This document shows, piece after piece, positions 7,857-28,690 of a DNA stretch of 28,690 nt. Source of the DNA: Xenorhabdus eapokensis. GTDB taxonomy: Bacteria > Pseudomonadota > Gammaproteobacteria > Enterobacterales > Enterobacteriaceae. Location: positions 1-28,690 of the forward strand of contig NZ_MKGQ01000034.1 in assembly GCF_001908105.1 (NCBI RefSeq), in the 5' to 3' direction. The number at the start of each line of letters is the position of its first letter. Position 1 is the stretch's first letter. Position numbers and translations under genes: made by a program. The notes beneath the pieces are model-generated. The model was not told the DNA's origin. It was given only the letters and a program-made list of their open reading frames with translations, and ran no database searches.

Positions 7857-9780
<1,924 letters not shown>

Positions 9781-17069: not shown

Positions 17070-17131
17070 AATCTCCCCGCTTCTCACTTTTAAATACTTC
17101 ATCTGCTTAAGAATAATCAATTAAAAAAATA

Positions 17132-17152
17132 AATCAAAAACAGTTTCCATTA
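17132..17152 (-). promoter_or_regulatory. Putative IclR box upstream of aceB
   Basis: Read on the minus strand the site is TAATGGAAACTGTTTTTGAT. As I recall it, the E. coli aceB operator has TGGAAATTGTTTTTGATTTT, which this matches with one difference over the shared part. It lies about 63-83 bases upstream of the aceB start. Confidence 0.65.
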
Positions 17153-17321
17153 TTTTTGATAATCAGAATTCATATTGTTAAATCAATAAGTTAATTAAGA
17201 TTAAAAGCAGAAGGTTCAGAGAAGTAAATTCCAAAAAATCGAACACAACGATGTTAAGTTTTTGTTATGCATGAAAAATAACGAGTGACTATTGAACAAC
17301 AACAACAGAAGGAAAATTAAT

Positions 17322-17359
17322 AAAATGAGAAGTGTCTCGCTTCAGCAACCTCTCATTTT
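17322..17359. terminator. Terminator-like hairpin left of the element
   Basis: AAAATGAGA (17322-17330) pairs with TCTCATTTT (17351-17359) over a 20-base loop, with T-rich sequence on both outer sides. It could end transcripts in either direction. No gene reading into it is visible in the window. Confidence 0.4.
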
Positions 17360-17580
17360 TATCTAAAACTTAAATTAGATTTAATCTAAGGTGGGGTTCA
17401 TAAAAGCGAGATCATATGGCGTTGTATTACTTCGCGTTCATATGCTTTCGTGATCTTAAAAATTAACATTTAAAATCAACTAATTAAATCAAAAATCACA
17501 CTGTACATTGTTCCAGTGTTTCTTGACGTTTTATCACTTTTACGCAACACTGTGTATAAACATTTATATAAAGATCTTGG

Positions 17581-18807
17581 GTGACTATGTCCGCCGAACT
17601 CAACAAACTCAGTGACAAAAAACTTAAAAATCTACACGGAAAAGAAAGGGACGCTATCGAATTTTTTGCCGATGGTGCAGGCTTAAGTGCAAAATTATCT
17701 AAAGTCGGTGGTATTAGTTGGGTCTTTACATACCGACTTGATGGCAAGAAGCTAAACCGCCTTACCATTGGACGCTATCCTGATATGCCTCTCAAGCAAG
17801 CCCGTGAAACGCGGGATAAATGCCGTAACTGGTTGGCTTCTGGTAAAGATCCAAAGTTACAGTTTAGCTTAACTATGCAGGAATCATTAAAACCAGTCAC
17901 TGTAAAAGATGCTATCGAGTATTGGATAGATAACTATGGAAAAGACAACCGCGTAAGTATTGATAAGCATATAGCTCAACTAAATAGATATATTTATCCC
18001 AATATTGGGAACATGGCATTATCAGACTGTGAAACGCGCTATTGGCTTCAATGTTTTGATAATATAAAGAAAAAATCCCCTGTTTCTGCTGGAAGTATAT
18101 TCCAATTATGCAAACAAGCTTTAAAATTCTGTCGTGTGAGAAAATTCGCTATTAGTAATGCTTTGGATGATTTAACCATTCCAGATGTAGGCAAGGTACA
18201 AAATAAAATCGATAGGTTTTTAACCGATAATGAGTTAGGTCAATTATGGAGATCTATAAATACAAATACTCACACTCCTTATTACAGTAACTTATTAACA
18301 ATCTTGATTGTGTTTGGCTGTAGAACTCAAGAGGCTATATTATCGACACATTCGGAGTGGGATTTTAATTCCATGCTGTGGACTGTTCCAAAGGAACATA
18401 GTAAGTCTGGTTGTAAAATCATTCGCCCCATACCAGCATATATGAAGGAATTTTTAGAAAAACTTATCTACCAAAACCATAAAAGCGGTTATTTACTTGG
18501 TGGATTAAAAGACGGCGCAACAGTGGCGAGATATGGGATAAAAATATGGAAAAAATTAGGCCATACTGAAAAATGGACATTACATGATTTAAGGCGCACC
18601 TTAGCAACTAAGCTAAATGATATGGGCATCGCACCACATGTCGTGGAACAGCTTTTAGGCCACGCTTTACCGGGCATCATGGCTATATACAACAAGAGCC
18701 AATACCTACCAGAGAAGCTAGACGCTTTAAACAAGTGGTGTGAGCGATTGGATGTATTGGCGGGTAATTATGAGAATGTGGTTCTTTTAAAAACGAGTCA
18801 GAAATGA
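17581..18807 (+). CDS. P4-type tyrosine integrase (DUF4102 family)
   Basis: This is a site-specific recombinase that inserts and excises the element. The 408-residue protein has the N-terminal DUF4102 arm-binding domain (FFADGAGLSAKLSKVGG, then LTIGRYPDMPLKQARETR), a core-binding domain around residues 105-200 and a C-terminal catalytic domain. The catalytic residues are intact: Arg248 (VFGCRTQEA), His335 and Arg338 (LHDLRRTLAT), His361 (LLGHALPG) and nucleophile Tyr370 (MAIYNKS). Translation may start at GTG 17581 or ATG 17587. The gene's stop overlaps the next start as ATGA, so it is coupled to the DUF6387 gene. Integrases of this family usually target tRNA genes, but none was seen here. 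Confidence 0.93.
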   Translation: MTMSAELNKLSDKKLKNLHGKERDAIEFFADGAGLSAKLSKVGGISWVFTYRLDGKKLNRLTIGRYPDMPLKQARETRDKCRNWLASGKDPKLQFSLTMQESLKPVTVKDAIEYWIDNYGKDNRVSIDKHIAQLNRYIYPNIGNMALSDCETRYWLQCFDNIKKKSPVSAGSIFQLCKQALKFCRVRKFAISNALDDLTIPDVGKVQNKIDRFLTDNELGQLWRSINTNTHTPYYSNLLTILIVFGCRTQEAILSTHSEWDFNSMLWTVPKEHSKSGCKIIRPIPAYMKEFLEKLIYQNHKSGYLLGGLKDGATVARYGIKIWKKLGHTEKWTLHDLRRTLATKLNDMGIAPHVVEQLLGHALPGIMAIYNKSQYLPEKLDALNKWCERLDVLAGNYENVVLLKTSQK

Positions 18808-18938
18808 GAATTAATAAAAAAAGTGATTTGCCAAAATGGTTTGATATTGAGAAATACAGTGTATTCCACAATATAGGTGATAATGATCTATTAAATCAAT
18901 TAATAGTTGACGGGATTATTTATCCTATGGCTCTCTAA
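18804..18938 (+). pseudogene. DUF6387-family gene, N-terminal fragment (frameshifted)
   Basis: The frame starts with ATG overlapping the integrase stop and reads MRINKKSDLPKWFDIEKY. This resembles the N-terminus of DUF6387 proteins, which often sit beside P4-type integrases; their function is unknown. It stops after IIYPMAL at 18936-18938. In the run CTCTCT (18931-18936) one CT unit appears to be extra: removing it joins this frame to the next one as IIYPMALSEGIYFCLDE. The fragment is therefore the first part of one broken gene. Confidence 0.65.
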
Positions 18939-19294
18939 GTGAAGGAATCTATTTTTGTCTGGATGAACATAAAGATATTACAGAAAAATATTATACCGAA
19001 ATATTTTCAAATGTCATTAGGCCTCTATCTAGTTCAACTTGGCATCGTAATAGAATGAAAACCAAAAAATATAATGATATGCAACTAAGTTCAACAGATA
19101 TTGTAACCCCACTACAGTTAATTGATATAAAAAAATTAGAGAACCCAGTTAACAACTATATAAATCAGAAAAATATAAAACACTCACTGAGAGGACAAAA
19201 AGCTTCAGTAAATAAACTCAATCCATATTCAAGTGAGATGATGATTACTTTAGATATGGATAGCCCAGATGAAATTTTACTAAATGACTTTTCA
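18939..19294 (+). pseudogene. DUF6387-family gene, middle fragment (no start, cut by IS630)
   Basis: This frame continues from the N-terminal fragment after the CT duplication, with SEGIYFCLDEHKDITEKYY and then IRPLSSSTWHRNRMKTKKY. It ends at DMDSPDEILLNDFS, where the IS630-family element begins. An ATG at 19055 gives an apparent 80-residue ORF, but it lies inside the older gene and has no good ribosome binding site. Base composition is clearly more A+T-rich than the core genes. Confidence 0.6.
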
Positions 19295-19296
19295 TA

Positions 19297-20411
19297 ATTA
19301 TGAGAGTTTCATATTTCCTATTCCTTTCCATTGATTTTTTGAAGCTGCATTTAAAAAAAACTTAACTCTTTTGATGAGCATCCACATATATCGGCAACAA
19401 GGGTTCCGTGTGACGGTTTCATGCAAGGATTGCCATAGCCGCTCTATTTTATTCAGCCAAGGAGAATAAACCGGAAGAAATAACAAGTTGACTGTTGGGT
19501 TTTGCTCCAGCCACGTCTTGACCCGCCGACTTTTATGAATGCTGTAATTATCCAAAATAAGGGTCAACGTTTTTGCATGACGGTGACACCGTTTTAACTC
19601 TTCTAACATACTGATAAATAAACAAGAGTTTTTCCTATCAGAACTCGTGTAAAAAATTTCCCGCGTTTGGCTATCAAAACATCCGGCAAAGTAATATTTT
19701 TGGTTTTTACCCGGTGTGATGATCCGTTTTTGTTGGCTTTTAAGATACCAGTCTGACCCTATTTTAGGATTGAAATGAATATCCACTTCGTCTTCATAAA
19801 ACACGGGATGCTCTTTTGATGCGCCCAGTAATGCCTGGTTAATTTGCTTCATCTTCTCTTCATATTCAGGATCTTTTTCATGTAATGTGGGTGCAGCTCG
19901 CCGCCAAACGATCTGATTTTTGCAGAGAAAGCGATAAAGGGTGCTGATTGAAAATTTTATATGAGTCAACTCGTTGAGTTGTATCACAAAAAGCTCAAGG
20001 CTCCAGCGAGAACGCCCATAACCGAACTGCTGAGGAGAGAGTTTCAATAAATAAAAGAGAAAAGGTAAAAAACAGGTTAAATTCCATCGTTGATGACGGC
20101 CTGAGGGCTTAGTTTGCAATCCTAACCAACCGTATGTTCTAAAAGATTTTATCCAACGCCATACAGAAGACTGAGCGACACAAAGTGTTTCAGCGACGTG
20201 AAAAACGGGCTTCCCTCGATGAATCATGAGAATGGATAGAATACGGATGGCATACTTTTTATCGGGCGTTTTTTGCGCCCTTTTTTTCATCAGGCGTCGT
20301 TCGTTGCGGGGAATAGGTGGTAGGATAACCATAACTCAGTCCTTCTTTTTGCTTTTTTGTTTCTGGGAAATCCAAATTCGCCAAAATGGGACTGAGTTTC
20401 TTTGACACTCC
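19297..20411 (-). mobile_element. IS630-family insertion sequence (ends approximate)
   Basis: A full-length IS630-type transposase gene lies inside the DUF6387 gene. IS630 elements duplicate a TA target. TA dinucleotides at 19295-19296 and 20412-20413 would give an element of 1115 bases, a normal size. However, the sequences inside those points do not form convincing terminal inverted repeats, so the limits are estimates. The right end, read inward, begins GGAGTGTCAAAGAAACTCAG; no copy of this is found at the left. Confidence 0.7.
19298..20332 (-). CDS. IS630-family transposase
   Basis: This 344-residue DDE transposase moves the insertion sequence by cut-and-paste at TA sites. It closely resembles E. 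coli IS630 transposase (343 residues). The N-terminal half has helix-turn-helix DNA-binding regions (VAETLCVAQSSVWRWIKSF). The catalytic domain has FYEDEVDIHFNPKIG (Asp181), LILDNYSIHKS (Asp261) and NKIERLWQSLHE (Glu297), with 35 residues between the last two acids. ATG at 20332 has AAGGA upstream. No frameshift or missing catalytic residue is seen, so the enzyme may be active. The stop codon lies almost at the estimated left end of the element. Confidence 0.93.
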   Translation of the reverse strand: MVILPPIPRNERRLMKKRAQKTPDKKYAIRILSILMIHRGKPVFHVAETLCVAQSSVWRWIKSFRTYGWLGLQTKPSGRHQRWNLTCFLPFLFYLLKLSPQQFGYGRSRWSLELFVIQLNELTHIKFSISTLYRFLCKNQIVWRRAAPTLHEKDPEYEEKMKQINQALLGASKEHPVFYEDEVDIHFNPKIGSDWYLKSQQKRIITPGKNQKYYFAGCFDSQTREIFYTSSDRKNSCLFISMLEELKRCHRHAKTLTLILDNYSIHKSRRVKTWLEQNPTVNLLFLPVYSPWLNKIERLWQSLHETVTRNPCCRYMWMLIKRVKFFLNAASKNQWKGIGNMKLS

Positions 20412-20413
20412 TA

Positions 20414-20745
20414 CCATTTTGAAAAGTCATTTAGAAGATATCAGAAAATTATTACCAGAGTGGAGAAAAGAATTAAATTTCAGTTCCAGAGAGCCAAACG
20501 TGCAAACTTCAAGTTCATGGGATGTGGTTAAAAGGAAAATATTAGAATATAAAATAGTTCCCATTGTTGATTTAATGTGCTGGAATAAAATAATAGGCAA
20601 AAGAATTACTAATAAGAAAATTGCTCAATTAGTTTTTCTACATGGAGAATACGACTCTACTAACATAGCTCAGACCATAAAGCCATTTATAGAAAATTTA
20701 ATGAGTGATTTTTCTATAGAAAAATATCAACGATTAATTAGATAG
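20414..20745 (+). pseudogene. DUF6387-family gene, C-terminal fragment after IS630
   Basis: The frame right of the insertion reads LKSHLEDIRKLLPEWRKELN and later VPIVDLMCWNKIIGKRITNK, which fits the C-terminal part of the DUF6387 family. An ATG at 20386 would make a 119-residue ORF, but its first codons (MGLSFFDT) come from the end of the insertion sequence. The frame is not the same as that of the middle fragment if the IS ends are placed at TA, so a small extra change or a different boundary is likely. Confidence 0.6.
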
Positions 20746-20796
20746 GAAAATTATTTTTTATTTTTCTGATGATACCCTTATCTTAAACGTAGAAAA

Positions 20797-20829
20797 TACC
20801 CTCACAAAAACAACTAAACAGTGAGGGTA
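20797..20829 (+). promoter_or_regulatory. Hairpin covering the ribosome binding site of the AlpA-like gene
   Basis: TACCCTCAC (20797-20805) and GTGAGGGTA (20821-20829) are perfect 9-bp complements with a 15-base loop. The right arm contains the GAGGG Shine-Dalgarno and ends two bases before the ATG. It could act as a translational switch in RNA or as a protein operator in DNA. A partial copy (ATACCCT) also occurs around 20772. Confidence 0.65.
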
Positions 20830-20831
20830 AC

Positions 20832-21113
20832 ATGACCATTCGATACAACACTCCTACGCCAGAAGAACGCCGCTCTATCCTTTCCGAATACGGCGAACCT
20901 TATGATCGTCTTGTACGTGAAAAGGAACGCCAGCACATCACCTCTATTTCCAGAACGTCAGCATGGAAACTGGAAAATGAAGGTCGCTTCCCTGCCCGTA
21001 AGCCATTAGGCCGCAATTCCTGTGCTTGGTTGCTCAGTGATCTGCTTCATTGGGTACGTAACCCGCCAACAGTAGAGAACGTAAATAACCCCTATAGCCG
21101 AAAATCAAATTAA
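20832..21113 (+). CDS. AlpA-family phage transcriptional regulator
   Basis: AlpA-like proteins are small MerR/excisionase-fold DNA-binding regulators. They switch on genes of P4-like prophages and phage-inducible islands, including excision. The 93-residue product has the AlpA pattern in its middle: ITSISRTSAWKLENEGRFPA (a recognition helix followed by the FP turn), then KPLGRNSCAWLLSDLLHWV. About 35 residues precede this core, longer than in minimal AlpA proteins. The ribosome binding site is inside a perfect hairpin. The next gene starts 18 bases downstream, so the two are probably co-transcribed. Which promoter it activates cannot be seen. Confidence 0.8.
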   Translation: MTIRYNTPTPEERRSILSEYGEPYDRLVREKERQHITSISRTSAWKLENEGRFPARKPLGRNSCAWLLSDLLHWVRNPPTVENVNNPYSRKSN

Positions 21114-21131
21114 TTAAGACAGGGTAAAAAT

Positions 21132-21725
21132 ATGACATCTAAAAATATGGCCTTAAATGGTCAGGGACTTGCTCACGCTGAAAACAAAAAAAAGGATATT
21201 TTAAAAGTTGATCCAGCGGATATCTCATTTATTAAATTTGAGGGCATACAGGTACAGATAATTAAAATTAATAATGAACCGTGGTTTATTGCAAAAGATG
21301 TTTGTGACGCACTGGGAATAGTTAACTCGCGTGATGCTTTAAAAGCTCTCGATTTGGATGAAAAAGATACCGTAGCTTTAACCTACGGTATTCAGGGAAA
21401 CCCTAATAGAGGTGTTATTTCTGAATCTGGGTTTTATAAGCTAATCACCCGTAGCCGCAAGGCCACCAAGCAAGGAACATTCGCCTATCGGTTCGCTAAT
21501 TGGGTATTTCGTGATGTGATTCCGTCCATTCGCAAAACAGGTTCCTACGGTGTGCCATTTGCTGCGCTGAACGACTTCACACGACGACAGAACGAATACA
21601 AAGCAATTGCGTCTCAGCGTGGGCGCGATCTCCAATCATGCAAGGGAGAGCTAGCCAGCTTAAACAAAGAAGGAAGGGAGCTTTGGAGAACATACCAGCC
21701 TGACCTTTTGGAAGAGGCAGAATGA
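21132..21725 (+). CDS. Bro-N domain phage antirepressor-like protein
   Basis: Bro-N proteins are phage regulators, often antirepressors, that bind DNA through the N-terminal Bro domain. In this 197-residue protein the domain spans about residues 30-137: FEGIQVQIIKINNEPWFIAK, DVCDALGIVNSRDALKAL, GVISESGFYKLITRSRK and FRDVIPSIRKTGSYGVP. The C-terminal part is helical and charged (ASQRGRDLQSCKGELASLNK), without the KilA-C or ANT domain typical of full antirepressors, so it may have another partner domain or be shortened. AGGG lies upstream of the ATG. Its last codons overlap the beginning of the structured region downstream. Confidence 0.82.
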   Translation: MTSKNMALNGQGLAHAENKKKDILKVDPADISFIKFEGIQVQIIKINNEPWFIAKDVCDALGIVNSRDALKALDLDEKDTVALTYGIQGNPNRGVISESGFYKLITRSRKATKQGTFAYRFANWVFRDVIPSIRKTGSYGVPFAALNDFTRRQNEYKAIASQRGRDLQSCKGELASLNKEGRELWRTYQPDLLEEAE

Positions 21726-22227
21726 TGATCGTTATGTCTGGTGGCTCCTTGGGATTAAGGAGTCCTATTGCCGAGGTCATTAACTCAGTGACCTCGAAGA
21801 ATACCGTAGTCCTCACTTTGGCTGGTCACTCAGCGAAACTTTTCGCTCAGTTCCAATCGGAGAAATATTTCGCTGATGGGTATACGAATATTTTCGGACA
21901 CCTTAATAACTCATTGATTTCCCCGCTGACCGTCAAATTGGCGTTTGGTCGTAGTTTGGGAGGCTCCCCGATAATTTCGGGGTGGCTGCTTAACTCATTG
22001 ATATTTAATCAAGCTGCAAATATGCAGTCTGCTTGTAATTTGAGCGCCTCACTTAGTGGAGCACAAACTTTGCGACTGTCATTTAGTCAGTCACAAAAAG
22101 AAAAGGATAGCACGGCGAATGCTACCCTTTGGGATGATGGCTCTTTCCATCATGAGATAAATCAATTAGTTATCTACACCCTTTTAAGAGAGGCAGTTAG
22201 GCTACCCTCTTTAAGAGGTTTGGTTGG
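21726..22227 (+). other. Stem-loop-rich non-coding region, candidate P4-type immunity RNA locus
   Basis: About 500 bases hold at least seven stem-loops. The clearest are CTCCTT/AAGGAG (21745-21762), CGAGGTCA/TGACCTCG (21772-21796), AGCGAA/TTCGCT (21832-21847), CCCCGA/TCGGGG (21966-21982), AAAGG-TAGCA/TGCTA-CCTTT (22102-22130) and ATGATGG/CCATCAT (22134-22153). TAACTCATTGAT occurs twice (21907-21918 and 21991-22002). A segment at 22159-22173 is complementary to 21906-21920 at 14 of 15 positions. Phage P4 keeps its CI immunity RNA and complementary seqA/seqC targets in the leader of its replication operon, a comparable place. A continuous open frame crosses the region but overlaps an opposite-strand gene, so I do not call it coding. 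Confidence 0.5.
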
Positions 22228-22398
22228 TTATTGTTCAATGCCGCGAGATTGCAACTCTTTACGGATAATTCTCTTTATCCATGCAGATATAGATTCATCA
22301 CCATCAATTTTCATCGCTTCCCTCATAGCTTGTTCTAATTGTGGCTCAACTCTGAATGCAATTTGTTTATTACCTCTCGGTAAATTTGTGTTTGACAT
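22228..22398 (-). CDS. Small ribbon-helix-helix (Arc-like) DNA-binding protein
   Basis: This 56-residue frame on the minus strand reads MSNTNLPRGNKQIAFRVEPQ, followed by LEQAMREAMKIDGDESISAW and IKRIIRKELQSRGIEQ. The pattern fits a ribbon-helix-helix repressor: a basic strand (KQIAFRVEP), helix A, a turn before ESISAWIKR and a second helix. It is the only leftward regulator gene in this part of the element. Its start faces the rightward icd-like/primase operon across a repeat-rich 130-base gap, the typical layout of a repressor that controls itself and a divergent operon. It is too short for many gene callers and lies opposite a long spurious frame. Confidence 0.72.
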   Translation of the reverse strand: MSNTNLPRGNKQIAFRVEPQLEQAMREAMKIDGDESISAWIKRIIRKELQSRGIEQ

Positions 22399-22422
22399 AT
22401 GTAATACTCAGGGTGTATGTTG

Positions 22423-22458
22423 TTTGTGTCTGACAGTGTACAACACATTTGTGTCAGA
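22423..22458. promoter_or_regulatory. Candidate operator between the RHH gene and the replication operon
   Basis: TTTGTGTC occurs twice in direct orientation (22423-22430 and 22448-22455). Overlapping these, TCTGACA (22429-22435) and TGTCAGA (22452-22458) form an inverted repeat around GTGTACAACAC. Short symmetrical repeats just upstream of a ribbon-helix-helix gene are a likely autoregulatory operator. Confidence 0.6.
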
Positions 22459-22534
22459 TGTAAAACAACAACGCCCCGAAGTGCTACCAACACTATCGAG
22501 GCGTCTAACCAAAAACGTAAAGGAGTCTTACGCT

Positions 22535-22783
22535 ATGGATACACCACAGCATAACCAAACTCGCCTTAAATTTACATTCCTAATTGCATCGGGCACTCAA
22601 CGGCTAGTGGATCTTCACCCTGTACGCCTGATTACTGTACTGGCAGACAACGAAGGTGAAGCCCGTCTACTGGCGGGTATTTCTTCCCTGATATTTGTTT
22701 CCCGTCAAGCATGGGATATCGGTATCGACACTCCTTTCAACTGTAGCGATATATCTACTGTTCAGGGGGTGAACCATGCGTAA
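22535..22783 (+). CDS. Host cell division inhibitor Icd-like protein
   Basis: The 82-residue product begins MDTPQHNQTRLKFTFLIASG and continues TQRLVDLHPVRLITVLADNE, then GEARLLAGISSLIFVSRQA. This matches the short proteins annotated as Icd-like in enterobacterial P4-like phages, where a KF-F hydrophobic strand precedes an E-AR-LL segment and an F-SR end. Phage Icd/Kil proteins block host division; activity here is inferred from resemblance only. AAGGAG lies upstream of ATG 22535. The frame is open to 21722, but the upstream part crosses the stem-loop region and the opposite-strand RHH gene, so the short start is preferred. The stop overlaps the next start by 8 bases. Confidence 0.65.
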   Translation: MDTPQHNQTRLKFTFLIASGTQRLVDLHPVRLITVLADNEGEARLLAGISSLIFVSRQAWDIGIDTPFNCSDISTVQGVNHA

Positions 22784-22946
22784 CCCCGAACCTCATGACT
22801 ATTACACCCACAAGAACGGGGAAGCCGTACAAGTGCTGTCAGTGGCCTTTAATCGCGTGACTTTTGTCCGTGATGGTTATCACACCCCATGCACCATGCC
22901 ATTAAGCCGTTTCACTCAAGAATACACCTACGCAGGGAGAGCCTGA
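22776..22946 (+). CDS. DUF4222-family small phage protein
   Basis: The 56-residue frame reads MRNPEPHDYYTHKNGEAVQV, then LSVAFNRVTFVRDGYHTPCT and MPLSRFTQEYTYAGRA. It fits DUF4222 proteins of enterobacterial prophages: an N-terminal P-P-D-Y-H segment, a beta strand V-F-R-GY, a C and then a F-F end. The function is unknown. GGGGGTG lies six bases before the ATG, which overlaps the Icd-like stop as ATGCGTAA, so translation is coupled. It is short enough to be missed by length-limited gene callers. Confidence 0.75.
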   Translation: MRNPEPHDYYTHKNGEAVQVLSVAFNRVTFVRDGYHTPCTMPLSRFTQEYTYAGRA

Positions 22947-22948
22947 TC

Positions 22949-23254
22949 ATGTCTGACATCTATAACCACTTGGTACGCACCAGCTTTAACGATCTGAGCA
23001 CCGAAGAACTCAAAGATCTGCGTAAAAACTCCGAAGGGGCATTGAGTAGCGTGATGGCGGCCATGTCTGCAATGGGGGAGATGGCGTTCTGGTCAGTTGA
23101 TAACGAAAGCTATGACAATCGTCAGGCAAGGGAAGATTTACGCCGTATCGGTGAAGCATTGATGTATTTACCGAGGATCGCCGAAGCGCTGAACGACACG
23201 GAACAAAACGCCCAGTTTGAAATCCATCACCGCGAGGGATTCCCAAAATGGTAA
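22949..23254 (+). CDS. Small phage protein of unknown function
   Basis: The 101-residue product (MSDIYNHLVRTSFNDLSTEE at the start, HHREGFPKW at the end) is acidic and largely helical by appearance, with no motif that I recognise. GGGAGAG precedes ATG 22949, which lies two bases after the DUF4222 stop. Its own stop overlaps the primase start as ATGGTAA. This tight placement indicates a role in, or at least co-expression with, the replication operon. Confidence 0.75.
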   Translation: MSDIYNHLVRTSFNDLSTEELKDLRKNSEGALSSVMAAMSAMGEMAFWSVDNESYDNRQAREDLRRIGEALMYLPRIAEALNDTEQNAQFEIHHREGFPKW

Positions 23255-25962
23255 GTCATATTGATATTCGTTCGGTGAAAGCAGCGGCGCAAGGGCAATG
23301 GCAAGGTTTATTGTCTGCCTGTGGGGTGGATGTTCCAGCAAAGGGTAAGCATGGCGCTTGCCCCATCTGTGGCGGTACTGATCGCTTTCACTTCATGGAT
23401 GACCACGGTAACGGTGACTGGCATTGTCGCCAGTGTGATAACCCGCATCATGGTGATGGCTTTGATTTACTGATGAAGGCCAAAGGAATAACGATCACCG
23501 AGGCCGCAAAGATGGTTTCTGAGGCGCTGTTGCTTCCTTTACCAGAACCCAAGCCCGCCAGAAAGGAGGCTCCAAAATCGGAGGCTCCTCCGATAGCCGA
23601 GAAAGTGAACAAGCTGGTGGCTCAGGCTACTATCGGACAATCCGACTATCTGACCAAAAAGGGGCTGCCATGCCCCGATCAGCGATTATTGAAAGATGGC
23701 TCTTTAGTGCTGGTCACTCAGGCACTGGACAGCACAATCACCGGTGCTCAGGTCATTAAGCCGAGTGGTGAAAAGCGCTTTGTGCCCGGCTCGAAGAAAA
23801 AGGGGAGTTTTATCCCCTTATCGCCCATCACCGGAACGCCGGACACGATCATTATTGCTGAGGGCTATGCAACGGCCTTAACCGTCAGCCAATTGCATGA
23901 GGGCTTGGTGCTGGCTGCGCTGGATGAGGGTAATTTATCGACGGTTGCCGGACTGGTGAGAGATCGGTGGCCGACAGCAAAAATCATTCTGGCGGCTGAC
24001 AATGATTGGCATGAATTGGGTGAATTAGACGACAAGGGCAAACCCAAGAAGAACGTCGGCAAGATTACAGCAGAGAAGACAGCCAAAGCTACCGACGGGT
24101 GGATCACATTACCGCCGACAGAACATAAGGCTGATTGGGACGATTATCGCCAGAGTCACGGCATTGAGGCAGCAAAGCAGGCGTTTAGTAAGGGGTTGTA
24201 TCAGGTGGGAGCGAATATGTCCGTGGTGATTAATTTGGATGCATACCGTGAGAAAGAACACGATCCGCTGATACCGTTTGTTGATGTTCGCACCGAGGGC
24301 GTTTTTTATGTCACACCGAAATTAGACAAGGAAACAGGCGAAATCGTCAAATCGGAACAGTGGCTATGTTCACCGATTGAGGTTATCGGAACGGGCATTG
24401 ATGATAGTGATGAGCAATACCTGATTGTTCGCTGGAAAGCGACAGGCCATAAAGAGCCGGTCATTAAAGGAATTGCATCGGCCGACATTGGTGAGCGCGA
24501 AGGCTGGCGGATACTCAAGGCGGGGGGTGTACAGGTGACAACTAAAAGTCATCTCAGGGCAACCCTGGCTGACTGGTTGATCCGAAGTTACACCCAGAAA
24601 ATCTGGAGTATCACAGCAACATCGGGCTGGCATAAAGGGGCTTATATCATGCCGGACGGCTCAGTGATTGGCGTACCCCAGCAACCGGTCTTGTTTAACG
24701 GGGGAAGTGCATCAGCAAATGCCTATACCGTCTCAGGAACGCCGAAAAGCTGGCGTGAGAATGTAGCAATACTGGCAAACAATAACCCCTTTATGATGCT
24801 GGGTATTGCGACCGCGTTAGCGGCTCCTTTAGTGGGCATTGTCGGGGCTGATGGCTTCGGCATTCATCTGTATGCCCAATCAACCGCAGGCAAAACGACA
24901 ACCGCCGATATTGCCACCAGTTTATACGGTGAGCCAGATAAGCAGCGCCTGACATGGTACGGAACCGCGCTGGGGATTGCCAATGAAGCATTGGCTCACA
25001 ACGATGGCCTGTTATCGCTGGATGAAGTCGGACAGGGAGCGAACCCGAAACACGTCCATATGTCAGCCTATACGCTGTTTAACGGTAAGGGCAAAATTCA
25101 GGGAGCAAAAGAAGGCGGCAACCGACCCATGTCAAGCTGGCGAACAGTCGCTATCAGTACTGGTGAGAAAGATATCCCCACGTTCCTAATCGAAGCCGGT
25201 ATTAAGGTTAACGCGGGGCAGTTAGTCAGGTTACTGAATATTCCGATGGAACGAGCCAGGGAGTTACACGGCCTGGGAAATGGTAAGGCGCATGCTGACG
25301 CTTTAAAACAGGGGTGCAGGGAACACTACGGGGCAGCGGGAAGAAAGTGGATTGATTATTTATCCTCACATCAAAAAGAAGCCAGACAAGCCTATGTTGA
25401 TGCACAGGCTCGATGGAGCCAGTTAATTCCTGAAAGCTACGGCGAGCAGGTGCAGCGGGTCAGTGATCGCTTTGCTGTACTGGAAGCTGCCATGTTGTTA
25501 GGGCGCGTTGTGACCGGATGGGATGAACGCGGGTGCAGGGATGCCCTGCAATATATCTTTAATGTCTGGGTAGCTGAGTTCGGGACAGGGAACAAAGAGC
25601 AGGAACAGATTGTCGAGCAGGCCATTTCATTTCTGAATGCTCATGGTATGAGCCGTTATGCGCCATTGCCTTATGATGAAAGGGATCTACCGATACGGGA
25701 TTTAGCGGGTTACCGGGAGAAAAAAGGGATTCATGATGATGCGCCGATTATTTTCTATACACTGCCCGCCACATTCAAACAGGAGATCGCCAAAGGGTTT
25801 AACGTGGATATGTTCGCAGATACGTTAGTGAAAAATAGCATTCTCAAGAAGCCTGCCAGTGGAAGGAGTTTTCAGGGAAAGACACCGCGCCTTAAGCACT
25901 TAGGGGGTATCCAGCAACGGGCTTATATCATGGTGTTAGTGCCTGAATCAGACGACGAATAA
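23248..25962 (+). CDS. P4-type primase fused to DUF927 helicase-like domain
   Basis: This 904-residue protein should start replication of the element. Domains in order: a primase zinc ribbon with Cys38/Cys41 (CPIC) and Cys60/Cys63 (CRQC) near residues 36-80; a Toprim domain near 195-290 with the P4 primase motif EGYATA (205-210, Glu205) and Asp251/Asp253 (AADNDW); and a DUF927 AAA-type ATPase from about 350 to 620. The ATPase has Walker A AQSTAGKTT (543-551) and Walker B LLSLDE (Asp592-Glu593). The C-terminal 250 residues may bind DNA. It is the last gene of an overlapping operon. A 10-bp iteron array begins 23 bases after its stop, as if primase and origin form one replication module. Confidence 0.9.
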   Translation: MVSHIDIRSVKAAAQGQWQGLLSACGVDVPAKGKHGACPICGGTDRFHFMDDHGNGDWHCRQCDNPHHGDGFDLLMKAKGITITEAAKMVSEALLLPLPEPKPARKEAPKSEAPPIAEKVNKLVAQATIGQSDYLTKKGLPCPDQRLLKDGSLVLVTQALDSTITGAQVIKPSGEKRFVPGSKKKGSFIPLSPITGTPDTIIIAEGYATALTVSQLHEGLVLAALDEGNLSTVAGLVRDRWPTAKIILAADNDWHELGELDDKGKPKKNVGKITAEKTAKATDGWITLPPTEHKADWDDYRQSHGIEAAKQAFSKGLYQVGANMSVVINLDAYREKEHDPLIPFVDVRTEGVFYVTPKLDKETGEIVKSEQWLCSPIEVIGTGIDDSDEQYLIVRWKATGHKEPVIKGIASADIGEREGWRILKAGGVQVTTKSHLRATLADWLIRSYTQKIWSITATSGWHKGAYIMPDGSVIGVPQQPVLFNGGSASANAYTVSGTPKSWRENVAILANNNPFMMLGIATALAAPLVGIVGADGFGIHLYAQSTAGKTTTADIATSLYGEPDKQRLTWYGTALGIANEALAHNDGLLSLDEVGQGANPKHVHMSAYTLFNGKGKIQGAKEGGNRPMSSWRTVAISTGEKDIPTFLIEAGIKVNAGQLVRLLNIPMERARELHGLGNGKAHADALKQGCREHYGAAGRKWIDYLSSHQKEARQAYVDAQARWSQLIPESYGEQVQRVSDRFAVLEAAMLLGRVVTGWDERGCRDALQYIFNVWVAEFGTGNKEQEQIVEQAISFLNAHGMSRYAPLPYDERDLPIRDLAGYREKKGIHDDAPIIFYTLPATFKQEIAKGFNVDMFADTLVKNSILKKPASGRSFQGKTPRLKHLGGIQQRAYIMVLVPESDDE

Positions 25963-25984
25963 TTTCTCATGTGAGGGCTAAACC

Positions 25985-26096
25985 TGTTGTCTCAGTTGTC
26001 TCGGTTGTCTCATTTTTATTAACTATATGAATTGTAATTATTTTTATTTTTAAATTGAGACAACATGAGACAACAAACAGGGGTTTTGAGACAACA
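25985..26096. other. Candidate replication origin: six 10-bp iterons around an A+T-rich core
   Basis: The 10-mer TGTTGTCTCA occurs at 25985-25994, with close copies at 25994-26003 and 26003-26012 (9-base period). Its complement TGAGACAACA occurs exactly at 26056-26065, 26066-26075 and 26087-26096. The two opposed groups flank 43 bases (26013-26055) that are almost pure A and T, a likely melting region. Position directly after a P4-type primase-helicase gene argues for an origin; a regulatory operator is the alternative. Confidence 0.7.
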
Positions 26097-26135
26097 TCAA
26101 ACGGGAAACCGAAAGGACAGTACAGCAGAGGCATT

Positions 26136-26216
26136 ATGAAAAAATTACTTAACTTACACTGTCAGAAAGAGAGTGGCTTCATGGGGATGTTGGTGGGGGA
26201 GTGTGCGAATGCGTGA
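26136..26216 (+). CDS. Possible 26-residue leader peptide before Q
   Basis: A short frame with AGAGG five bases upstream reads MKKLLNLHCQKESGFMGMLV and ends GECANA. Its stop overlaps the Q start as ATGCGTGA, so ribosomes finishing it could restart on Q. No family is recognised. It may only couple translation, or be a remnant of a larger gene. Confidence 0.35.
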   Translation: MKKLLNLHCQKESGFMGMLVGECANA

Positions 26217-26607
26217 TATGCGGATGATACTCAGCCAATGGGGCGCATGGGCTAACGAAGGGAATAGTGATGTTGACTGGTCACCCATTGCGGCGGGATT
26301 CAAAGGGTTGACGGCCAGCACCCGAAAGAGCCGTGCACAATGTTGTGATGATGACGGGATAGCGATTGATGCGGCTGTTTTGCGATTGAAGAAGCACAAC
26401 GCTTATTATTTTCAACTGATCGTGATGCACTACATTAAGGCGCTGCCATTAAGGGTGATGGGCAATAAATTAGGCATATCCCATAACGAAGTTGCCAAAA
26501 GATTACAGGCGGCCGAGGGATTTATTGAAGGCGTTTTGGCAGTCTCCGGGGTTATTTTGGAATTTGATAAAGGCGTACAAAAAAAAGTCGTCAATCAGGT
26601 TGCGTAA
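26209..26607 (+). CDS. Phage antitermination protein Q
   Basis: Q proteins bind near the late promoter and let RNA polymerase read through the terminator behind it, switching on late genes. The 132-residue product matches the Phage_antitermQ family from its first residues: MRDMRMILSQWGAWAN, VDWSPIAAGFKGL, then SRAQCCDDDGIAID and LRLKKHNAYYFQLIVMHYI. A helix-turn-helix-like end follows (MGNKLGISHNEVAKRLQAAE GFIEGVL). ATG 26209 has GGGGGAG at good spacing. A strong terminator stands about 120 bases after the gene, as expected for a Q-controlled late region, and cargo genes follow it. Confidence 0.88.
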   Translation: MRDMRMILSQWGAWANEGNSDVDWSPIAAGFKGLTASTRKSRAQCCDDDGIAIDAAVLRLKKHNAYYFQLIVMHYIKALPLRVMGNKLGISHNEVAKRLQAAEGFIEGVLAVSGVILEFDKGVQKKVVNQVA

Positions 26608-26992
26608 TTACAAAAGTCGATATATTGTGATAAGAGTGATAGCTATGTCACGTAGCTTATTGGCTTTTCTCGACAGATGAGAAACAGTGATGTAGCGTTA
26701 TCATCTGGTTTATTTATTTCAGACATTTTACCTCGCTTCGGCGGGGTTTTTTGTTGCCCTGTATTCAATAAAGATACCCAGAATCAGCCGCAAATTTCAA
26801 ATTTACACTCCAGCGGATGATTCTCTTAGCGAATAGGCGGATTTTATAATGCATCACCACATATTCGTGCGTATTAGCTGTTGTGTGGCTGCATCCCATT
26901 GAGATAAAAATTTGCCTTAAGTAATATCAACTGGCGGTTTAGCTGTAGGATGAAATGACCTTTAACTTTAACGATAAATAAGTGAGGAAATG
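26608..26992 (+). other. Non-coding region between Q and the Tad2-like gene
   Basis: This 385-base stretch includes a rho-independent terminator (26731-26752) and, beyond it, a TATAAT (26845-26850) without a good -35 element. The part before the terminator is where a Q-dependent late promoter would be expected, but none is clear. The part after it probably carries the cargo gene's own promoter. No gene was seen. Confidence 0.4.
26731..26752 (+). terminator. Rho-independent terminator after Q
   Basis: CCTCGC and GCGGGG form a 6-bp stem (one G-T pair) with a TTCG tetraloop, followed by six T residues. Confidence 0.9.
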
Positions 26993-27700
26993 ATGTCTGA
27001 TGTTAATAAGCTGGATAATAAACAATGTCCGTTTGATCCTGACCAATACAAAACGAAGGTTAAGATTGATAATGATATAGCTGCACCAGAAAGCTCTTTT
27101 CCGTGGGCTATTATTAAAGCGTATTTAGGAAATAAAGTGTATCGTAGTAATTGGAATTTTCCTGTTGAATACATACGTCTTGCTGGCATACCTGATAACG
27201 ATCCTTATATTGAAAAGCATAAACCGGAAAACACCACGTCTTGGAATCCAACTCAAGAAGATTTGGTTGCTTGTGACTGGAAAGTCATGTGTCCAGACGA
27301 TAGCATGCTGTCTTTCGATCTTAAGATAGGGACTAGCTGTGGTATCGGTTGGTTTCAATATTGGGGATGTGCGACGGAAAAGACTACAAGTTACTCCCCT
27401 TTTGGTACTCTGACTAATCTTCAAAACACTCTAGGTATTAGAAAAATGACATATTTTGGGATTTTGGAAGACCCTGTCGGTACTTTTTCCGATGTGGCTT
27501 TGTCGTTTGATACCTTAGGCCTATCAGACTTAGGGAATAAGAATCTTGAAGTAATAGTTAATGGTTCAATTTATAATCTTGGCTTAAGTTTTAACGATAC
27601 AGATTATATCGGCTATCAATCTGATGGTGCAAAACTACTAGGCGACCTACTGAAACAAAACGTAGGTAATACACTGTCTTTTTGTTTCAACTGGAAATAA
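26993..27700 (+). CDS. Tad2 (DUF2829)-like anti-Thoeris domain protein with extra C-terminal domain
   Basis: Tad2 proteins, formerly DUF2829, are phage proteins that bind and sequester the cyclic-ADP-ribose-type signal of the Thoeris defence system. In this 235-residue product the Tad2-like part covers about residues 35-100: FPWAIIKAYLGNKVYRSNWN, a YIRLAG strand and the hallmark WNPTQEDLVACDWKVM. The remaining 135 residues (SFDLKIGTSCGIGWFQYWG, FGTLTNLQNTLGIRKM, SDGAKLLGDLLKQNVG, ending LSFCFNWK) form a separate domain that I do not recognise. ATG 26993 has GAGGA just upstream; another ATG lies one codon earlier. The gene is A+T-rich and enclosed by two near-identical terminators. Anti-defence activity is inferred from the motif only. 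Confidence 0.6.
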   Translation: MSDVNKLDNKQCPFDPDQYKTKVKIDNDIAAPESSFPWAIIKAYLGNKVYRSNWNFPVEYIRLAGIPDNDPYIEKHKPENTTSWNPTQEDLVACDWKVMCPDDSMLSFDLKIGTSCGIGWFQYWGCATEKTTSYSPFGTLTNLQNTLGIRKMTYFGILEDPVGTFSDVALSFDTLGLSDLGNKNLEVIVNGSIYNLGLSFNDTDYIGYQSDGAKLLGDLLKQNVGNTLSFCFNWK

Positions 27701-27725
27701 CCTCAAATCTATACCAGTATCCAAA

Positions 27726-27747
27726 CCTCGCACTCGCGGGGTTTTTT
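27726..27747 (+). terminator. Rho-independent terminator after the Tad2-like gene
   Basis: CCTCGC and GCGGGG form the same stem as the terminator at 26731, here with an ACTC loop, followed by six T residues. Confidence 0.9.
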
Positions 27748-27778
27748 GCTATCTACCCGTAGTCAACGCAGGGTTTAC

Positions 27779-27872
27779 AATTCGAATTAATCGGGATCGG
27801 TACTAATGAAAGATGAATTCGAATGGTGCGATGAGTTCGATGGATTTTAATTCCCCCGAATTCGAGGGAATT
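27779..27872. repeat. Cluster of GAATTCGA-type repeats ending in a hairpin
   Basis: Related sequences occur at 27779-27788 (AATTCGAATT), 27815-27824 (GAATTCGAAT), 27833-27842 (GAGTTCGATG) and 27857-27866 (CGAATTCGAG). The last lies inside an inverted repeat at 27849-27872, with arms AATTCCC and GGGAATT around CGAATTCG. It is placed just after the higA stop and could end higBA transcription. Confidence 0.5.
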
Positions 27873-27880
27873 ACGAACCC

Positions 27881-28168
27881 TTAACCTTGCAGGTGAACGA
27901 ATATCGGCCTGATTTCAGGGCGCTGTTGTTGGGAAGCCTGCCACAACTCATATTGGGACTGCATATTCGTCCACATTTCGGCACTGGTTCCCAATGCCGC
28001 TTCTAAACGAAGTGCCATATCTGCTGATATACCCGTGTTGCCATTTAAAATACGGGATAAAGCCACACGGGTTACGCCCAGTGCTTTTGCTGCTTCTGTA
28101 ACAGAAATGTCGCCTAAATATTCGCGCAAAACAATTCCGGGATGTGCGGGGTTATACATTTTATTCAT
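27881..28168 (-). CDS. higA: HigA-family antitoxin
   Basis: HigA neutralises HigB and represses the operon. The 95-residue protein opens with the HigA-family signature [13 protein letters not shown], followed by an XRE helix-turn-helix ([20 protein letters not shown], then [19 protein letters not shown]) and the usual [12 protein letters not shown] segment. GAGGA lies before ATG 28168. The gene starts 11 bases after the toxin gene. This toxin-first order is the rule for higBA and unlike most type II systems. Confidence 0.92.
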
Positions 28169-28179
28169 AGTATTATTCC

Positions 28180-28461
28180 TCAGTGATAATCTTGATAATT
28201 AACCAAAATGGCATCTTCGCCTTCAAAGCGAAATGTCAGCCGCCAGTTCCCGTTGACAGAAATAGCCCAGTGGCCTTTTAAATCAGCCCCCTTTAATGGA
28301 TGTAATTTCCAGCCGGGTGCGTTCATGTCATCAGGTTTTTTAGCGGTGTTTAACGCGGTTAATTGAATATTCAGTTTTACAGCGTGATTTGTTTGAATGC
28401 CTGCTGTAGAGCCTGTTTTAAAGAATTTTTCTAATCCTTTATGTTTAAAACTTTTGATCAT
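28180..28461 (-). CDS. higB: HigB-family toxin (RelE-like mRNase)
   Basis: HigB toxins are RelE-fold ribosome-dependent mRNases that stop translation when the antitoxin decays. The 93-residue product begins [18 protein letters not shown] and has the family core [20 protein letters not shown] followed by WRLTFRFEG and an acidic VNYQDYH end. These residues match HigB proteins linked to HigA of this type. It is the first gene of the pair and has a strong promoter with an overlapping operator. The system can stabilise the element in the population or act against phages. Confidence 0.92.
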
Positions 28462-28471
28462 TGCGCACCGC

Positions 28472-28517
28472 CGTATATTGTATAGCGTCAGTATACGCAG
28501 GGTATGTGCAGTGTCAA
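28472..28517 (-). promoter_or_regulatory. higBA promoter with overlapping operator
   Basis: On the minus strand TTGACA (28517-28512), a 16-base spacer and TATACT (28495-28490) form a near-consensus sigma-70 promoter. The inverted repeat CGTATA (28472-28477) / TATACG (28492-28497) overlaps the -10 element and is a likely HigA binding site. Confidence 0.75.
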
Positions 28518-28602
28518 CTCAATTCGCCACCGCAATCACCCCCAGAACCTCAGTCTCTCCTATTGCGGCTGGCAACCTATTAACTCGCTAACGAGGTGAA
28601 TG

Positions 28603-28690
28603 ATGGAAAAGCGTATTGAAGAACCTTACTTTTTTAATCCAAATATGGATAGTGAAGAGCTGGAATACTGGTTAGGGCAGCAGAAAGTGT
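28603..28690 (+). CDS. Unidentified gene, 5' part only
   Basis: A frame with GAGG six bases upstream starts at ATG 28603 (another ATG lies one codon earlier) and runs off the window edge. The visible residues are MEKRIEEPYFFNPNMDSEEL followed by EYWLGQQKV. They are acidic and not assignable to a family. It is divergent from higBA and probably belongs to the element. Confidence 0.6.
   Translation, partial: MEKRIEEPYFFNPNMDSEELEYWLGQQKV

Follow-up and report, generated by a model that had tools for sequence, protein, structure and literature searches.

A six-copy iteron array beside a DUF927 primase-helicase gene of Xenorhabdus eapokensis: a probable origin of the Gram-negative phage-inducible chromosomal island type with its own iteron word

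In the DNA of Xenorhabdus eapokensis analysed here (the window, that is, the whole stretch of 28,690 nucleotides at positions 1 to 28,690 of the forward strand of contig NZ_MKGQ01000034.1, assembly GCF_001908105.1), six copies of the 8-mer core GTTGTCTC are found at 25985-26096, just after a primase-helicase gene. It is very probable that this array serves a Gram-negative phage-inducible chromosomal island (PICI) as its replication origin, that the adjacent primase-helicase reads the iterons through its C-terminal domain, and that the iteron word and a wing of this domain are exchanged together as a cassette. The origin type is already known, and one case of it has been tested by others. The window array is a further allele with its own word, because the helicase is of the DUF927 kind found in Rep of the Staphylococcus aureus pathogenicity island (SaPI) SaPIbov1 and in Cch, and the layout is the published PICI one. 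The first-pass annotation, made from the sequence alone, had proposed a new origin representing another specificity of the phage P4 scheme. Judging by the sequence, an iteron origin tied to the neighbouring primase-helicase and a word of its own can be retained from that proposal, while the origin type is not new and the scheme is that of the PICIs rather than of P4.

The array, as seen by direct reading and a repeat search, is composed as follows.

25985 to 26012, + strand: proximal iteron set, three direct copies (cores 25986-25993, 25995-26002 and 26004-26011; 9-bp spacing)
26013 to 26055, no strand: A+T-rich spacer of 43 bp, 40 of 43 A/T (93%), a probable melting region by the published PICI origin layout (PMC6092414)
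26056 to 26096, - strand: distal iteron set, three inverted copies (cores 26057-26064, 26067-26074 and 26088-26095; spacing 10 and 21)

The core spacing along the array is thus 9, 9, 53, 10 and 21. The primase stop codon ends at 25962, which leaves the gap of 22 bases already given in the first-pass annotation, and the 43 nearly pure A+T bases between the sets were also described correctly there. Its three direct and three inverted copies of a 10-mer need a narrower wording: the 8-mer core is common to all six copies, whereas TGTTGTCTCA is exact in only four (25985+, 26056-, 26066- and 26087-). The phrase is loose for the direct set, because the copy at 26003 has one mismatch and that at 25994 has two. 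An 8-mer with at least two copies per strand within 130 bp appeared in none of 60 dinucleotide shuffles of the window, while the real window has three plus three. At up to two mismatches, the 10-mer has 37 matches in the window, counting the six of the array, against an expectation of 27.7 (at least 37 in 3 of 100 shuffles), and outside the array it occurs only with one or two mismatches, at a frequency near chance. In a distant blastn search of the array against phage records, the best 20 of 25 matches each covered at most 22% of the query, mostly the A+T spacer.

In Gram-negative PICIs, two iteron sets flank an A+T-rich stretch just 3' of pri-rep (PMC6092414). According to the same source, the pri-ori of EcCICFT073 replicates in E. 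coli DH5alpha, giving no colonies without rep and significantly fewer without ori; its Fig. 2a presents the iteron words of several E. coli PICIs. The CFT073 region (L298; L and G denote loci and genomes) contains exact TGTCTACC at 9011, 9020 and 9088, while the complementary word occurs at 9068 and 9229; an A+T-rich stretch extends between 9027 and 9068. The window resembles EcCICFT073 (Fillol-Salom 2018, PMC6092414) in having two sets around an A+T stretch immediately 3' of pri-rep and in the co-direction of the integrase, AlpA and primase genes, all on the + strand here, and both are features by which the Gram-negative PICIs are recognised. It differs in the word, TGTCTACC in EcCICFT073 and GTTGTCTC in the window.

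The protein proposed to read the iterons has the following parts.

23248 to 25962, + strand: primase-helicase of 904 aa, with zinc ribbon (33-72), Toprim (201-306), DUF927 helicase (348-627) and C-terminal winged-helix domain, by Pfam, PHROGs and the SaPIbov1 Rep structure 8tch
25657 to 25959, + strand: C-terminal domain of the primase (about residues 804-904), a probable iteron-binding domain by the AlphaFold model and PDB matches
25843 to 25926, + strand: wing segment (residues 866-893, including S871-G-R-S-F-Q-G877), the best predictor of the iteron word by partial Mantel test and residue partition

The helicase core belongs to DUF927 (PF06048, E 1.1e-47), and its relatives by sequence with a solved structure are Rep of SaPIbov1 (8tch) and Cch of SCCmec (5dgk). 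The earlier designation of the enzyme as P4-type was therefore abandoned: the match with P4 alpha (31% over residues 5-313) covers the zinc-ribbon and Toprim primase half and stops at residue 313. Based on the AlphaFold model of residues 690-904 (mean pLDDT, the predicted local distance difference test score, 87) and PDB matches, the C-terminal domain is predicted to have the same fold as that of SaPIbov1 Rep, and less surely to resemble TcpK. SaPI Rep recognises iterons directly downstream via its C-terminal domain (Ubeda 2007, as told in PMC7581432). Unlike the window system, SaPIs are Gram-positive and encode the primase apart from Rep, and the sequence match to 8tch (E 1e-11) is limited to residues 374-799. 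TcpK of pCW3 reads 9-nt repeats with its wing (5vfx, PMC6137059), although it is a separate small dimeric protein and oriT serves conjugative transfer, not replication (same source).

To describe the layout in relatives, fetched loci encoding a relative of residues 325-904 were freed of duplicates (82 loci) and the DNA after the stop codon was examined; 17 loci scoring less than 410 bits were left out, two of which had no repeat motif at all, so that 65 remained in the alignment. Eleven loci had been picked for divergence from E. coli similarity listings of 40 and 20 rows. The counts over 44 loci refer to those with at least 560 bits; many lower-scoring loci also show arrays after the gene, with less sure motif calls. 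Opposed sets follow the primase stop immediately in 43 of the 44, and the 44th (L236) reads into its own array. Conservation of the array with the primase, which the first-pass annotation had set as its check, was thus found, though the words differ and the linkage is non-exclusive, because places without a primase exist (see below). The distance between the opposed sets is 53 bp in 19 loci, 55 in eight, 51-52 in three and 63-65 in 13, forming two clusters about one DNA turn apart. The six-copy spacing of the window is repeated in L228, L203, L204, L205, L229 and L232, and nearly so, with another word, in L258, L302 and L303, of which L258 and L302 have the six-copy form itself. Larger forms have 10-14 counted copies over approximately 250-380 bp (L001, L206, L207 and L189). 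L001, an E. coli element between yicC and dinD, has the word and layout of the window (77% identity over 112 bp), while its primase is only 52% identical. Opposed arrays were also present in the named Xenorhabdus loci L027, L038, L094 and L095. The matches listed by a pattern scan of genome contigs were mostly single pairs from many phyla, and those with opposed copies were taken further; in L091 (Alistipes) and L123 (a metagenome contig), the opposed copies are not accompanied by a primase match.

The words of related primases differ, including GTTGTCTC, GTTGGTTC, GTGGTCTC and ACCGACAA as well as GTTGTCTCA, GTGGTCTCA (L206), GTTGTCCCA (L307 and L308), GTTGGTTCA, GTGGGTTA (L266), GGTCGGTT(C/T) and CGGGATAA. 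For the 51 loci that had at least five copies, a distance of 15-60 nt from the stop to the first copy, and an alignment of 300 or more of the 346 body positions, word distance correlated best with the 27-residue wing near the primase C-terminus (r 0.83), compared with 0.74 for the helicase body alone. In partial Mantel tests, the wing given the body retained 0.57 (reached by 0 of 2000 permutations) and the body given the wing 0.10 (reached by 55 of 2000), figures which are suggestive, not proof, because relatedness is uncorrected. Among the 27-residue segments tried, 868-894 had the highest partial correlation. Residue 877 parts the GTTGTCTC, GTTGGTTC and GTTGTCCC groups without exception (16, 16 and 2 of the 44 loci); K or R at this position also accompanies the four remaining loci with GGTT in their word, and V is found in five ACCGACAA loci. 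Within 800-904, L206 differs from all ten GTTGTCTC loci compared only at residues 873 and 874. This comparison suggests that the iteron word and the wing change together.

Natural recombinants point in the same direction. Between L304 (E. coli chromosome) and L266, identity per 60 nt is 96-100% until approximately 300 nt before the stop, falls to 37-71% from there to 360 nt after it, and then returns to 95-96%; the two words differ. The pair L309 and L001, both from E. coli chromosomes, is less sharp: identity is 80-98% upstream, 55-68% in the final 300 nt of the gene, 65-75% across the array and 76-90% beyond. The L231 primase is 96% identical to that of the window over residues 1-320 and only 27% over 831-904, and its word is another one. 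Since the recombinants differ in domain and origin together, and L231 shows the same pattern, specificity appears to sit in a cassette of the C-terminal domain plus the origin.

The match of wing and word and its exchange as a cassette is the more novel part of our proposal. No report of the word or of a wing-word association was found among the matches listed by searches of open-licence PMC papers, and the 15 listed of 142 matches to a search of their running text only for TGAGACAAC had titles unrelated to phage or satellites. There is a precedent in spirit, with another kind of initiator, in the phage-inducible chromosomal island-like elements (PLEs) of Vibrio cholerae, where the RepA DNA-binding domain covaries with the origin, the two are exchanged as a module, and only cognate RepA/origin pairs replicate (PMC8263062). 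Unlike the window system, the PLE initiator is of the RepA_N type, with an N-terminal binding domain, iterons of about 30 bp and a noncoding origin apart from repA (same source).

Based on the above, we suggest the following mechanism. The primase-helicase would bind the 9-bp iterons via its C-terminal winged-helix domain, probably mainly by the beta-wing (about 866-893). The opposed sets would position two helicase assemblies, one on each side of the A+T-rich stretch, which would melt; the DUF927 helicases would then be loaded, and the fused zinc-ribbon/Toprim domain would prime replication. Exchange of the C-terminal domain together with the origin could yield separate specificities on one scaffold. 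A broader reading is offered tentatively: Gram-negative satellites might have an open set of distinct origin specificities on one rigid scaffold, with the wing reading the 9-bp iteron colinearly (873-874 with base 3, 877 with bases 5-7), and recombination of the cassette might allow escape from cross-replication by co-resident satellites or from origin-directed phage nucleases, as shown for PLEs, while half-origins without a primase, present at several places in the genus, are maybe copied in trans. With the present results, the array falls within an origin type that is known and has been tested in part, and what was one odd array becomes an allelic series, whose natural alleles bear on the way in which a satellite initiator acquires another origin word and on the question whether several satellites with different words can share a cell. 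If wing and word do match one to one, incompatibility between satellite replicons would be readable from sequence.

Several observations weigh against this interpretation, in addition to the primase-less arrays and the RNA fold discussed below. The next segments by partial r, 808-834 (0.47) and 628-654 (0.42), lie outside the wing; body and C-terminus are themselves correlated (r 0.91); the loci share descent and the permutations ignore kinship. L206 has 20 further private residues in 340-799. L266 is a short (2,183-bp), low-coverage contig from a phage sample, marked unverified, and L300 compared with L001 shows the upstream step and no clean return past the array (38, 80 and 50% per 60 nt). 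The TcpK match of the primase C-terminus is weak by Foldseek (E 0.1-0.3). Five GTTGTCTC loci were found via the word itself, four by pattern (L124, L159, L189 and L191) and L001 by array similarity, so the share of this type is uninformative. No circular record with the GTTGTCTC word was seen among the records examined.

The first alternative, which we consider unlikely, is that the array no longer has a function and is a relic comparable to the primase-less places of the genus. Among 30 genomes of this genus surveyed for places with the GTTGTCTC word, seven places adjoin a primase match, one adjoins a C-terminal remnant of the primase (G024 contig 78, L343; 50% over residues 852-903) and eight lack a primase: G029 at 662888, G006 contig 74, G024 contig 89, G012 contig 54, G023 contig 92, G020 contig 96 and two on G027 contig 77, one with only three direct copies. 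Isolated pairs with one mismatch in G005, G009, G014 and G030 resemble chance matches. In seven of the eight, the layout is that of the large array's far half, and the neighbouring genes are of the tail-fibre, integrase, glycosyltransferase or Tad2-like kinds, so that these places may be relics. The window itself has a transposase gene inside the element and lacks the right half of the larger 12-14-copy arrays, as a relic might. Against this, its primase frame is open across 904 codons, and the six-copy spacing recurs, exactly or nearly so, in the nine loci named above. As a separate observation, the half-arrays with the window's word and no DUF927 primase (L340 of G029, L341, L342, L344, L345, L346 and L347) have a constant layout: three direct copies, 53 bp, one inverted, 22, 77.

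A slightly less probable explanation still is that AlpA, the Bro-N antirepressor or the 121-aa protein uses the repeats as operators to control the genes that follow the primase. Operators of this kind, short and opposed, commonly precede a downstream gene, which here would be the Q gene at 26173, and AlpA and Bro-N proteins are encoded near the array. However, the 121-aa proteins of L231 and L234, 96% and 94% identical, go with ACCGACAA, while that of L230, at 81%, goes with GTTGTCTC; the AlpA proteins of L205 and L206 are both 98% identical and their words differ. In this comparison of AlpA and the 121-aa protein, the word follows neither. It does follow the primase wing, and no sigma-70-like promoter was found within 25700-26400. 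It is very improbable that the opposed repeats act as RNA, as a big transcript hairpin ending or regulating transcription between the primase and the next gene: the predicted fold is strong (-48.2 kcal/mol, z -4.77, equalled by 0 of 200 shuffles), but any opposed repeats fold so, the two sets differ in spacing, the 10-14 copies of larger relatives are unequal per orientation and cannot all pair, the sole terminator-like site found is not at the array but at 25887-25899 on the other strand, and it is the wing of the protein that the word follows. Paired changes in the two arms of a stem provide no test of this explanation, because all copies change together.

The preferred reading, a PICI origin, is accompanied by the following genes of the element.

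17581 to 18807, + strand: tyrosine integrase, left end of the satellite (PF00589, PF13356)
20832 to 21113, + strand: AlpA-type regulator/excisionase (PF05930, phrog_2790)
21132 to 21725, + strand: Bro-N antirepressor-like protein (PF02498)
21722 to 22783, + strand: 353-aa protein with no assigned function, partly kept upstream of the primase in relatives
22889 to 23254, + strand: 121-aa protein with no assigned function, directly before the primase (phrog_6805; 96% identical in L231, whose iteron differs)
26173 to 26607, + strand: Q-type antiterminator after the origin (PF06530)

Integrase, AlpA, the Bro-N protein, the two unassigned proteins, primase, array and Q antiterminator form a same-direction series, interrupted by a transposase gene on the other strand (19298-20332). 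A Q-type antiterminator also follows the origin directly in L228, L204, L205, L232 and L236. The genes to the left of the element encode malate synthase, isocitrate lyase, AceK and a regulator of the IclR type. No att-like direct repeat was found in 17100-28690, and the right end may lie outside the window; no Rfam family, including any for a C4/CI-type immunity RNA, reached the gathering score in the window, beyond which the element may extend.

Some minor observations should be mentioned. The region 19298-20745, between integrase and AlpA, carries a DDE_3 transposase, which we take to be IS630-like, and an adjoining DUF6387 gene of which only the C-terminal part is present. A Tad2-like (anti-Thoeris) domain and DUF7823 are encoded at 26990-27700; the former is found near such arrays both with and without a primase, also in L341, L346 and L347, and the latter also in L341 and L346. 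A HigB-like toxin and HTH antitoxin pair is located at 27881-28461 on the - strand. In E. coli 19AR0656 (L309, 3979-6966), the GTTGGTTC origin is followed by three tandem units of approximately 713 bp. Every unit carries a fragment of a single-stranded-DNA-binding protein and a ten-copy GTTGTCTC array, and the series may be a real amplification or an assembly effect. In L189, the primase and large array are located some 1.8 kb ahead of a tail tape-measure gene and may belong to a satellite inside a prophage late gene. Four primase matches of identical score in G016 (contigs C1, C2, with two, and C4) would fit several copies of one element in this genome.
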